The position numbers and the translations under genes were made by a program. The notes below the pieces were generated by a model that worked only from the letters and a program-made list of their open reading frames with translations, was not told the origin of the DNA and ran no database searches. From Kitasatospora sp. DSM 101779 (lineage in GTDB: Bacteria > Actinomycetota > Actinomycetes > Streptomycetales > Streptomycetaceae): a DNA stretch of 64,000 nucleotides. Below are positions 17,311 through 20,854 of this stretch, in pieces. Within the stretch, counting starts at the first letter, position 1, and each line of letters opens with the position of its first letter. The stretch is taken from assembly GCF_025655475.1 (NCBI RefSeq), contig NZ_JAHTIK010000001.1:2975734-3039733 (forward strand). The letters run 5' to 3'.

Positions 17311-17742
17311 TCAGGCCTCGGTGGAGGCGGCCTCGGCGTCAGCCTCGGCCTTGTCCGCCTTCTTGGCCTTCGGGGTGATGGCAACACCGGTGGTGCTGTC
17401 CTCGAACCCGGCGACGGCCTTGGCGAACAGGTGCGAGAAGTCCTCGACCTTGGGCTCGGCGACCTTCAGCGGCTCCGGCGCGGGCAGGCCCTTGAACTTC
17501 TGCCAGTCACCGGTCAGCTTGAGGATGGCGAGGACCGGCTCGGTCGGCTGGGCGCCGACGGACAGCCAGTACTGGGCGCGGTCGCCGTCGACCTCGATCT
17601 TCGAGGGGTTGTAGGTCGGCTGGTAGATGCCGATCTCCTCGATCGCGCGGCCGTCACGCTTGGTGCGGGAGTCGGCGACGACGATGCGGTAGTGCGGGGA
17701 GCGAATCTTGCCGAGACGCTTCAGCTTGATCTTGACTGCCAC
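17311..17742 (-). CDS. rpsP: 30S ribosomal protein S16
   Basis: The protein starts [20 protein letters not shown] and contains [21 protein letters not shown] and [13 protein letters not shown], as in S16. At 143 residues it is longer than the ~90-residue E. coli form because of an Ala/Lys/Glu-rich tail usual in actinobacteria. GTG 17742 has AGGAG upstream; the frame beyond it has no S16 similarity. Confidence 0.96.
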
Positions 17743-18214
17743 GGGAGTGGATTCTCCTGGTGTTGACGTGGGTGAGCGGCCGCTGCCACCGCGTGGGGTT
17801 GCGGCGACCGGCCGTTCAAGGGACACGCCAGCCGTAGGAGAGAGGGGTCCTGCCCGGCTGCCGAGTACTCAGCTGTCCATTCTGCCACAGTCGGGCCGAG
17901 GCCCCGAACCGGCCCGCGCGGGGCCGCCGCCGCCGGAGCGGTGGACGGGGAGCGACGGGGGGGCGGAAGGTAGGGCGGCGGCAGGGGCACGCAGGACGCG
18001 GAGACCGCCGATGACCCGGGGAGGGCGACGCCGGCACGGCACGGAGCCCCGGCAGATCTGCCGGGGGCGGTGCACGGCGACGAGCGGGACGACAGCACGG
18101 ACGACAGCACTGCAGATCGGCCCGACCGAGGGCCCCCGCCCCCGGTAGAGCCGAGCACAGCGAACTGTCGAGTTGGAGGGTGGTCACCGACGGCGCACGG
18201 CCGCCGGCCGGTAC
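17743..18214. other. Intergenic region downstream of the zincin-like gene and upstream of rpsP
   Basis: The 472 bp hold the rpsP leader and a 20-bp perfect palindrome at 18047-18066. No reading frame here shows a recognisable protein. The sequence is rich in C/G runs. Confidence 0.5.
18047..18066. promoter_or_regulatory. 20-bp perfect palindrome
   Basis: CCCCGGCAGATCTGCCGGGG is fully self-complementary with no loop. It could be an operator for a dimeric regulator or a terminator for the gene at 18215-18793. No U-run follows in either direction. Function is unknown. Confidence 0.55.
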
Positions 18215-18793
18215 TCAGCCGATCTTGAACGGCTGCTGGCAGGCACCGCAGACGATGGACGCCTGTGCGAGCACGGAGGGGACGACACGGACGTTCCGCC
18301 CACAACCGCACACAGCCTTGACGCGCACGCCGCCACCGGACGAGCCGTGCCTCGCCGCCGGGCCGCGGAAGGCCCGGTGGCCGCCCTCGCCCGCCACGGC
18401 GAGCTGGTGGGCGCCGAGGGCGCGCTCCAGTCGCTCGATGGTGTCGGCGTACCTGTCCTGCGTCTCCTTGAGCATGGTCACCTGGGAGAAGCCGCTGCTG
18501 GCGTGCGGCTCGACCGGGTGGGCCAGCCCGAGCTCGGAGGCGAGCATCAGGAAGCGCCGGTTGTGGTAGCGACCGGCCCGCGAGGTGTCGCGGATCTCCC
18601 GCGCAGCGGCCAGTCCGTGGGCGGCTTCGTGCAGCAGGCGCTCGAAACCGAGCCGGGTGCCGCACGCCGAGGAGGACTCGCCGATCAGCGCCTCGGGCGA
18701 GGCGAGATCGGGCAGGTCCTGGTGGTGGGCCTGGATGTCGCTCCAGGCGGCGGCCAGTTCGGCCGCGAGGACGAGAGGCTGTGTCGTGCTCAC
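18215..18793 (-). CDS. Putative zincin-type metalloprotease with C-terminal zinc ribbon
   Basis: I do not recognise a characterised family member, but the 192-residue protein has a clear HExxH motif in ERLLHEAAHGLAAAR (near residue 55) and a GRYHNRRFLMLASELGL stretch typical of a streptomycete family usually annotated hypothetical. The last 35 residues contain C-x-C and C-x2-C pairs (VCGCGRNVR ... VCGACQQPF), a likely zinc ribbon. This pattern resembles SprT-like proteins, which combine a zincin with a zinc ribbon. There is no signal peptide, so it is cytoplasmic. GTG 18793 has no evident ribosome site. It stands alone between rpsP and proS. Confidence 0.7.
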   Translation of the reverse strand: MSTTQPLVLAAELAAAWSDIQAHHQDLPDLASPEALIGESSSACGTRLGFERLLHEAAHGLAAAREIRDTSRAGRYHNRRFLMLASELGLAHPVEPHASSGFSQVTMLKETQDRYADTIERLERALGAHQLAVAGEGGHRAFRGPAARHGSSGGGVRVKAVCGCGRNVRVVPSVLAQASIVCGACQQPFKIG

Positions 18794-19242
18794 GCTGGAC
18801 CAACGATGGAGAGAGGGCCGATGTTCCGCGAGTTCCCGTTCACCGGGAATTCCCAGCTATCTCTCAGGAATGCGCACTCGCTCCTGAATTGCGTTGTTCT
18901 GACCTGACGCAAGACCAACCCCCTGCATCTGTGGACCCGTCGATTCTCGGCGGGCTCTCGGCTATCACCCGGGAACGCGCACGCCGCCCCTAGGCGGACG
19001 GCCGCAGCCCGGTCAAAATTGACAGGGCCACGGGCCGTATACCGTACCGCTTGTTTCGCACCGCCGGGAGTTGACCGGCGAGTAGCATCGACGAGCAGTG
19101 TGCAAACCACGGTTAACAATCCGCTGAATCGGCACCGAATTGCAACGGAACCGGTTCCGCAACGGCTTCGGTTTGTACCGTTCCCTGCACGGTGCCACCC
19201 GCCCGCTCCACGATCGTTGGCTCCCGGAGCGGGCGGAGCCGG
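18794..19242. other. AT-richer intergenic region upstream of the zincin-like gene
   Basis: These 449 bp are lower in GC than their surroundings. A short inverted repeat TTCCCG-TTCAC-CGGGAA lies near 18833-18849, and TTGACA/TTGACC hexamers near 19018 and 19070 could be -35 elements, but no well-spaced -10 is found. A frame of 109 codons on the minus strand lacks recognisable features. It may hold regulatory sequence for the zincin-like gene. Confidence 0.45.
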
Positions 19243-20655
19243 TCAGTAGGCGCGGGCGACGATCGCGACGTTGCCGGGCTGGTCGTCGGTCTCCGGGACG
19301 GAGCCGTCGGCGGCGACGATGCAGCGCACCGAGACGCCCTGCTCGGCCAGCTTGGCCTCGCCCTCCGGGCCGAGGTCGGCCCAGGAGATGCGGCCCCAGC
19401 CGGTGGCGGCGGCCTCGACGGCCTCCTCGATGGAGGTGACGTCGACCGTGCGGGCCTCGCGGCGCTCGCGGGACTGGCGGAGCAGCAGCTCCTGGTCCTC
19501 GTCGAGGATGCCGGGCACGGTCGCGGCCAGCGAGTCGGCCGGGACGGGCTCCTTGCCGCCGGCGATCCGGCGGACCAGCATCGCGGTGCCGTTCTCCAGG
19601 TCGCGCGGGCCGATCTCGATGCGCAGCGGAACGCCCTTGAGCTCCCAGTCGACCGCGCGGCGGCCGAAGGGGGTGTCCGTCCGGTCGTCGACCACGGTGC
19701 GCACGCCCGCGGCCTCCAGCGCGGCGCCGATCTCGCGGACCTTGGCGAGCACCGCGTCGTCGCCCTTGATCGCCAGCACCACGGCCTGGACGGCGGCGAG
19801 GCGCGGGGGCACCCGCAGGCCGCTGTCGTCGCCGTGGGACATGATCAGGCCGCCGACCATGCGGGTGGAGACGCCCCAGGAGGTCTGCCAGACGTACTCG
19901 CGCTCGGCGCCCTGCAGCTGGTACGTGGTGTTGAACGCCTTGGCGAAGTTCTGGCCCAGCTCGTGGCTGGTGCCCATCTGCAGGGCCTTGCCGTCGCCCA
20001 TCATGCCCTCGAGGGTGAGGGTGTTGATGGCGCCGGCGAAGCGCTCGCGGGCGGTCTTGCGGCCGAGCACCACGTCGATGCCGAGCACGTTGGTCATGAA
20101 GTCGCCGTACACCTCGGTGTGGATGCGCGAGGCGTAGGCGCGGGCGTCCTCGTAGGTGGCGTGGGCGGTGTGGCCCTCCTGCCAGAGGAACTCGGTGGTG
20201 CGCAGGAAGACCCGCGGGCGCAGCTCCCAGCGGACGACGTTGGCCCACTGGTTGATCAGCAGCGGGAGGTCGCGGTGGCTCTGGACCCACTTCGAGAAGT
20301 ACTCGTTGATGATCGTCTCGGAGGTGGGGCGGACGACGACCGGCTCCTCCAGCTCCTTGCCGCCGCCGTGCGTGACCACGGCGAGCTCGGGCGCGAAGCC
20401 CTCGACGTGCTCGGCCTCCTTGGTCAGGTAGGACTGCGGGATGAACATCGGGAAGTAGGCGTTCTGGGCGCCGGCTCGCTTGATGCGGGCGTCCATCTCC
20501 TGCTGCATCCGCTCCCACAGGCTGTACCCGTACGGTCGGATCACCATCGTTCCGCGCACCGGACCGTTGTCGGCCAGTTCGGCCTTGTTGATCAGGTCCT
20601 GGTACCAGCGGGGAAAGTCTTCCGACTGGGGGGTGAGTACGGGTGTCTTGGCCAT
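19243..20655 (-). CDS. proS: Prolyl-tRNA synthetase
   Basis: The 470-residue class II synthetase joins proline to tRNA-Pro. Motif 2 region (RPTSETIINEYFSKW ... PLLINQWANVVRWE), RTTEFLWQEGHTAHAT and the motif 3 segment MSHGDDSGLRVPPRLA are visible, followed by the anticodon-binding domain and a C-terminal domain ending in a conserved tyrosine (VARAY). It is the short archaeal/eukaryotic-type ProRS without the editing insertion of the E. coli type. ATG 20655 begins MAKTPVLTPQSEDFPRWY. Confidence 0.96.
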   Translation of the reverse strand: MAKTPVLTPQSEDFPRWYQDLINKAELADNGPVRGTMVIRPYGYSLWERMQQEMDARIKRAGAQNAYFPMFIPQSYLTKEAEHVEGFAPELAVVTHGGGKELEEPVVVRPTSETIINEYFSKWVQSHRDLPLLINQWANVVRWELRPRVFLRTTEFLWQEGHTAHATYEDARAYASRIHTEVYGDFMTNVLGIDVVLGRKTARERFAGAINTLTLEGMMGDGKALQMGTSHELGQNFAKAFNTTYQLQGAEREYVWQTSWGVSTRMVGGLIMSHGDDSGLRVPPRLAAVQAVVLAIKGDDAVLAKVREIGAALEAAGVRTVVDDRTDTPFGRRAVDWELKGVPLRIEIGPRDLENGTAMLVRRIAGGKEPVPADSLAATVPGILDEDQELLLRQSRERREARTVDVTSIEEAVEAAATGWGRISWADLGPEGEAKLAEQGVSVRCIVAADGSVPETDDQPGNVAIVARAY

Positions 20656-20854
20656 GGGGCGAATGGTACGGCGATCGACGTGCCGACCGTGAATCCGTTT
20701 CACCGGCGCACTGCGGGGGCGCACACCTCGGCGCACGGACACTCCCTGCACACCTCTGGACGTCGGGGCCGGGGCGCTGTTCGCTGGAAGGCGGGGCGGG
20801 ACACGACCGGGGGGAGCCGGAGCATCGGACGCACACACCGATTGGGAGGCCGCG

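Follow-up and report, generated by a model that had tools for sequence, protein, structure and literature searches.

We find that a 192-residue protein encoded between proS and rpsP in Kitasatospora sp. DSM 101779 is best explained as a domesticated, stripped-down SprT metalloprotein of mobile-element origin, expressed from an ECF-sigma-type promoter, and not as a standard DNA-protein crosslink protease; we place the probability of this whole reading at roughly 55%. Because part of the fold has been lost while the metal site and the promoter have stayed unchanged, the protein is probably a captured protease that now serves another purpose. Throughout, "the window" denotes the whole 64,000-nt stretch of DNA that we analysed, and we refer to the protein encoded there and its close counterparts as short forms, as distinct from longer, complete relatives (long forms).

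A near-universal gene between proS and rpsP

The coding sequence (18215..18793, minus strand) starts at a GTG codon (18791..18793, minus strand), where GTGAGCACGA is nucleotide-identical across all 25 aligned loci. Its codon-position GC is 0.736/0.539/0.907, and median pairwise dN/dS is ~0.10 among Kitasatospora-type loci and ~0.13 among loci of other Streptomycetaceae genera (45 pairs in each case); because of these properties, we regard it as a real coding gene under purifying selection. Conservation in Kitasatospora-type loci is about equal to that of ribosomal protein S16.

Matches to the window protein (E ≤ 1e-5) occur in 290 of 297 Streptomycetaceae genomes, with identities of 74-100% among the matches listed; in two genomes (G074 and G115) the best matches are clearly weaker. 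The seven genomes without a match belong to two genera. A profile search at E ≤ 0.001 recovered no member from any of them (0/7), and rpsP is present in all seven. Two genomes from one of these genera (L252 and L254) have proS adjoining rpsP with no such gene between, and in a stretch from the other genus (L253) proS falls outside the region inspected; the promoter motif described below is missing from all three stretches. Absence in these two genera could reflect loss instead of prior absence. Of 394 genomes of the class, 49 have a match: 40 from the family (our own genome included) and nine from outside it, where the matches are scattered and some contain stops. Within the subset of matches inspected, four family genomes (G064, G101, G107 and G110) carry a further match resembling the long form.

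The gene order read along the minus strand is ffh, a GNAT gene, proS, the SprT-derived gene, rpsP, a KH gene, rimM, trmD and rplS, with an MTase gene on the plus strand between the GNAT gene and proS. The flanking arrangement, with proS upstream and rpsP-KH downstream, is kept in all 51 Kitasatospora/Streptacidiphilus-type loci (L007-L056 and L058, some of whose records carry other names, and one of which, L018, ends inside the block). Among 15 further loci of the family, rpsP lies downstream in 15 and proS upstream in 10; proS was not found in the other five stretches around the gene. The proS of the window (19243-20838, minus strand) is itself an archaeal/eukaryotic-type prolyl-tRNA synthetase (TIGR00408, 480 bits), and a bacterial-type enzyme is encoded elsewhere in the genome (G000:C1:2325622-2327274; TIGR00409, 574 bits). 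A second synthetase might serve in resistance or regulation.

Two copies of the gene stand out. That of Streptacidiphilus sp. 4-A2 (L058:5995-6309) has a frameshift after IRDTSRAG, which is either an assembly error or a pseudogene, and Streptomyces sp. NBC_01643 carries a short form on a 712-kb plasmid (L122:5998-6588), with a dN/dS of 0.11 against L124.

The intergenic region between proS and the gene (18794..19242) is AT-richer, as the earlier note had remarked of some 450 bp upstream: its 449 bp have a GC content of 63.5%, against 73.2% for the window, which ranks it within the bottom 0.4% when 449-bp windows are sampled at 50-bp steps. The gap on the downstream side is 75.0% GC. Across 25 aligned upstream regions, the AT-richer region is not conserved between genera outside the promoter, which sits at its gene-side end. 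No Rfam family reached its gathering score within 17700-19400, and the sigma-70 promoter and terminator patterns looked for around the gene were absent.

A nearly invariant ECF-type promoter motif precedes the gene

Upstream of the start codon we identified a -35 element, GGAAC (18823..18827, minus strand), and a -10 element, CGTTG (18801..18805, minus strand), the latter 7 nt from the GTG. Among the 25 aligned loci, GGAAC-N17-CGTT is present in all and CGTTG in 23, the -10 element of the remaining two (L045 and L051) being CGTTT. More widely, GGAAC-N17-CGTT lies upstream of 104 of 105 distinct short-form coding sequences; the sole exception is the plasmid paralogue L122, whose -10 element is altered. 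The distance from the end of CGTT to the start codon is 8 nt in 93 cases, 9 nt in 10 and 5 nt in one. Because this leaves little room between the -10 element and the start codon, the mRNA is probably leaderless.

We read GGAAC-N17-CGTT as an ECF-sigma-type promoter on the basis of its resemblance to the SigR consensus GGAAT-N18-GTT (PMC2375139, PMC9205884), the BldN consensus CGTAACN16CGTTGA (PMC2375139) and SigE sites such as TGGAAC-N17-CGTCTA (PMC6767563, PMC10771440), as these are given in extracts of the cited papers. Judged against the same extracts, none of the three sigma factors fits exactly as the reader of the promoter: the gene's -35 element is GGAAC where that of SigR is GGAAT, and its -10 element is CGTTG where the SigE site has CGTCTA.

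The exact sequence GGAAC-N17-CGTTG occurs 13 times in the genome, compared with no occurrence of the reversed pattern, and may therefore be over-represented. Nine of the 13 sites, including that of the SprT-derived gene, overlap an open frame of more than 120 codons. When a start codon 3-11 nt downstream is also required, three distinct sites remain, the gene's own included, and again none for the reversed pattern. We propose no regulon from these sites, and no common theme was apparent among the downstream open reading frames. One site outside long open frames (L209; G000:C1:3859769-3859795) lies ~135 nt before an open reading frame whose translation is FtsH-like, and may be another promoter read by this sigma factor.

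In nine loci belonging to other Streptomycetaceae genera (L124, L126-L128, L130-L132, L136 and L138), an additional conserved block, approximately GCAAATTATTTGGGATGCCCCGGAAT, is found just upstream of the -35 element. It is absent from the aligned Kitasatospora-type loci, and is possibly an operator or UP element.

Long relatives support SprT ancestry

The earlier note had described a family without an assigned role, and this description stands: no Pfam, NCBIfam or PADLOC family was matched above threshold, and the only assignment was to phrog_6361, of "unknown function" (8e-11 for the window protein). Direct searches with the window protein returned no sequence relative in Pfam, NCBIfam, PADLOC or the PDB, and the Pfam search gave no match to PF10263 (SprT-like). 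Weak matches to CCHC_BCL-11A, XopO and 5gm1 were set aside as chance-level.

The relationship becomes visible through the wider family, for which we aligned 40 members (A1) and compared 20 short with 20 long forms. All 40 match phrog_6361, and 16 match PF10263 at E ≤ 0.1 (best 1.9e-4). L240, a viral member, reaches 34.2 bits, above the curated PF10263 cut-off of 25.6, and four long forms, three actinobacterial and one from Nannocystis (L060, L063, L065 and L067), score 17-22 bits, below that cut-off. In profile-profile comparison with hhalign, the 20 long forms aligned to 11 SprT-like proteins with a probability of 87% across 68 columns, or 77% in global mode; the corresponding values were 9% for YgjP-like proteins and 0.15% for reversed SprT. 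SprT and YgjP themselves aligned to each other at 94%, as expected for related zincins. Short forms aligned to SprT at 43% over 31 columns and to YgjP at 11%.

Other sequence searches returned no match. A profile (A2) had none among PDB sequences. Membership of ImmA/IrrE, a second family with which the earlier note had suggested comparison, is not supported: its profile PF06114 (M78) matched 0 of 40 members at E ≤ 0.1, the single M78 match of the genome lying at another locus. No PF10263 match in our genome exceeded the cut-off; one below it (L084) reads as YgjP-like from its HELAH...HGPRFW sequence, and we do not count it as a second SprT.

Structural comparison of the long form points in the same direction. 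A model of L063 (pLDDT 87.5) has strands at residues 35-40, 54-61 and 73-79 ahead of the HExxH helix, and its best solved match is 6mdx_A (Z 8.1, rmsd 3.0, 100 aligned residues), with 6mdw at Z 7.8. Both entries bear the title "Mechanism of protease dependent DPC repair", and we take them to be the human DNA-repair protease SPRTN. This match came from rescoring Foldseek's list, and a Z of about 8 is modest; plain Foldseek gave no match at E ≤ 0.001 for either the long-form or the window model. The next fold matches of the long form are minigluzincins, YbeY and other zincins; for these zincin neighbours (minigluzincins/selecase, YbeY and IrrE; Z 3.8-7.1), there is no Pfam sequence match in the family. 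With long relatives matching PF10263, the SprT profile and the 6mdx fold, SprT ancestry is well supported.

The long relatives are mobile and the short forms probably have a single origin

The long relatives, which are 30-40% identical, are carried by phages, plasmids and integrative elements of actinobacteria. Matches were present in 47 plasmid records (three at 60-80% identity, representing the short form or near it, and 44 below 60%), in four phage records from two phages, and on 24 viral contigs, several of them near-identical. Two of the plasmid members are annotated as "SprT-like domain-containing". Genes near the long forms encode FtsK/SpoIIIE, RepSA(pSAM2), a tyrosine integrase, GntR and terminase (eight open reading frames annotated, seven with a Pfam match; recurrent six-frame clusters held many shadow frames), and also a relaxase and, in phages, a Holliday-junction resolvase, helicase and primase. 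Counted by eye, 57 of the 58 proteins listed have HExxH, the short forms L058 and L122 being among the 58; five of the 57 read HEACH, HELAH or HEMVH, outside the narrow pattern used by our script. In gp24 of the Streptomyces phage Attoomi (L123:4980-5522), the motif reads HVATH, such that the metal histidines are kept and the catalytic Glu is lost, making this protein a candidate natural pseudo-protease.

The 20 short forms included in a 64-row tree make up one clade (support 100/100), whose stem measures 1.94 changes per column. This clade groups with long forms of phage, plasmid, viral and, in a few cases, genomic origin at 93/84, with an inner fork at 80/53, which is modest; the tree was rooted at the midpoint and drew long-branch warnings. 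A single origin of the short forms is supported by the strength of their clade and by the empty proS-rpsP gap in two genomes of a genus lacking the gene.

The phage and plasmid members of phrog_6361 that we inspected, a family to which Pas43 of the Actinoplanes phage phiAsp2 belongs, mostly have the long, complete form, unlike the window protein. The phiAsp2 record names SC2E1.07 of S. coelicolor as similar. This is presumably SCO5590, with rpsP as SCO5591, and we presume it to be the orthologue of the window gene. In a published gene table, S. noursei is given an "SCO5590" gene of 591 bp, the length of a 196-residue short form. In the main texts of the open-licence literature searched, SCO5590 appears only in that gene table, without a function, and is absent from a review of Streptomyces development; SC2E1.07 is not named in the open-licence literature searched, and a search there for SprT-like together with Streptomyces, plasmid and metalloprotease gave no use of the term SprT-like among the matches listed.

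Two strands are missing while the metal site is retained

What separates the short from the long forms is a junction after A31 (18700..18701, minus strand), at which strands b1 and b2 are missing. The ~36 alignment columns that hold them are absent in 20 of 20 short rows, and a relic of b3 (PEALIGE) is retained. The N-terminal three-stranded zincin sheet, of which L063 has all three strands, is thus not found in the window protein: because these columns are absent, its model (pLDDT 80.8) reaches the HExxH helix without a preceding strand. The AlphaFold model contains no metal or partner and is of middling confidence at residues 31-50. No zincin was present among its best 50 of 193 chains with Z ≥ 2 (best Z 4.3), which we treat as weak evidence, the missing sequence being the stronger fact. 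The earlier note had named a structure without a zincin fold as a refutation, and at the level of prediction this is what we observe. Its proposal of a small SprT-type protease survives in part: the ancestry is borne out through the long relatives, whereas the protein itself is incomplete. No observation made here points directly to a part in DNA-protein crosslink repair.

The putative metal site is retained. HEAAH occupies residues 55-59 (18617..18631, minus strand) and includes the putative general base E56. The third candidate ligand, H77 (18563..18565, minus strand), lies within GRYHNRRF and aligns with the SprT GHD/GHG histidine; SprT-like proteins carry their third histidine ligand ~12-20 residues past HExxH, in HGxxF. 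A zinc ribbon with four cysteines, C162xC164...C182xxC185 (18239..18310, minus strand), lies in the C-terminal part of the protein. Across 97 distinct short-form proteins (the frameshifted L058 excluded), H55, E56, H59, H77 and all four ribbon cysteines are without variation, and position 58 is A or V; among 105 distinct coding sequences, 67 encode HEAAH and 38 HEAVH. The HExxH and four cysteines from which the earlier note had started are thus conserved among the short forms, and the note's other refuting condition, a HExxH not conserved across the family, does not hold. When the protein sequence was shuffled 5000 times, HExxH arose in 146 of the shuffles and CxC...CxxC in one, so that it is conservation that carries the case for the former. 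In all, 105 of 192 positions never vary in the 97 proteins, including the block R68-L82.

Two further, largely invariant segments belong to the short clade and are not shared by the long forms. ESSSACG (residues 39-45; 18659..18679, minus strand), beside HExxH, is invariant in the 97 proteins; its C44 column holds Arg or Ala in all 20 long forms. The RG-rich linker FRGPAARHGSSGGGVR (residues 142-157; 18323..18370, minus strand) is invariant at 13 of 16 positions, with A146 and G150 kept in 96 of 97 proteins and position 147 variable; despite this conservation, residues 137-154 are modelled with low confidence.

Compared with PF10263 and SPRTN, then, the short form shares the HExxH helix, a third histidine in HN(R/K)xF that resembles HGxxF, and homology through the long relatives. 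It differs in lacking b1-b2 and any zincin among the best 50 of 193 model matches, and in its invariant ESSSACG and linker. Its C-terminal zinc ribbon, with four invariant cysteines, may correspond to that of SprT, but it is of the CxC...CxxC type, and PF17283, the SprT zinc ribbon, was matched by one of 40 members, at E 0.04.

Probably a captured protease with a new job

The history that we propose would begin with a SprT-like metallopeptidase of actinobacterial phages, plasmids and integrative conjugative elements, a single copy of which would have inserted between proS and rpsP in the ancestor of most Streptomycetaceae. The b1-b2 hairpin of the zincin sheet would then have been lost, the invariant segments near the active-site helix (ESSSACG) and before the ribbon (the Arg/Gly-rich linker) gained, and a fixed ECF-sigma-type promoter acquired, giving a leaderless mRNA. 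After the loss of fold, the gene would have been frozen.

In its present role, H55, H59 and H77 would bind a metal, and the zinc ribbon and basic linker would hold a nucleic acid or nucleoprotein partner. The E56 metal site may hydrolyse one specific partner and not crosslinked proteins generally, or a partner may complete the missing sheet. Hydrolysis may be retained: the unbroken conservation of E56 (97 of 97 proteins), a residue dispensable at a site where the metal is only structural, argues for it, and the missing sheet argues that it would not proceed in the ordinary way. Expression would be raised under ECF-controlled stress, and the position of C44 beside the metal helix, together with the promoter, hints at possible stress-linked gating.

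The invariance of E56, and of HExxH in 105 of 105 coding sequences, also speaks against the leading alternative, a pseudo-protease whose metal has a structural role only and which acts, without catalysis, as a zinc adaptor or regulator contacting nucleic acid or a protein through its ribbon and linker: a general base is needless at a structural site. We consider this a possible but clearly second-placed explanation. It would account for the loss of b1-b2, which support substrate binding, and for the absence of a zincin among the best 50 of 193 matches to the window model; the newly invariant C44 could occupy the open coordination place of the metal, and a phage relative, with its HVATH, already lacks the Glu.

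A canonical SprT/SPRTN-type protease of DNA-protein crosslinks is unlikely. Ancestry, the SPRTN-like fold of the long relatives, the zinc ribbon and the location of phage and plasmid relatives near replication or transfer genes would all suit it, but the window protein has neither b1-b2 nor a zincin-like model, and its invariant clade-specific motifs argue for a specialised partner.

More speculatively, and with a chance that we judge slim, the captured protease could be a split, redox-gated zincin. Having been captured once, it would receive its shed strands from a partner or a second copy, docked on the edge-strand relic, of which residues E34, L36, I37 and E39 are invariant; C44 would act as a cysteine switch, and thiol or envelope stress acting through an ECF sigma factor would both make and unlock the protein.

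A non-peptidase reaction at an HExxH+H site with iron or zinc, such as hydroxylation or RNA cleavage like that of YbeY, seems improbable: YbeY, at Z 5.6-5.9, and the HExxH-bearing oxygenase domain of 8s5f, at Z 3.7, both stand in the fold list of the long form, and the chromosomal neighbours are translation genes, but these Z scores are low and there is no Pfam-level sequence link to YbeY or an oxygenase. That the gene is a decaying mobile-element leftover without a host function, as the mobility of related genes and the altered -10 element of the plasmid paralogue L122 might suggest, is already contradicted by a dN/dS of ~0.1, near-universal presence and a nearly invariant promoter, and we give it almost no weight.

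The gene is near-universal and slowly evolving in these antibiotic producers, without a function in the literature searched. On the reading that we prefer, of a captured and reduced SprT metalloprotein, it offers a case of domestication of a phage or plasmid protease in which the fold is reduced and the metal site retained, and its ECF-type promoter, nearly invariant and probably giving a leaderless mRNA, provides a regulatory handle on it. If catalysis persists, the protein would show how small a part of a zincin suffices; if it does not, it would show how a protease becomes a stress adaptor.
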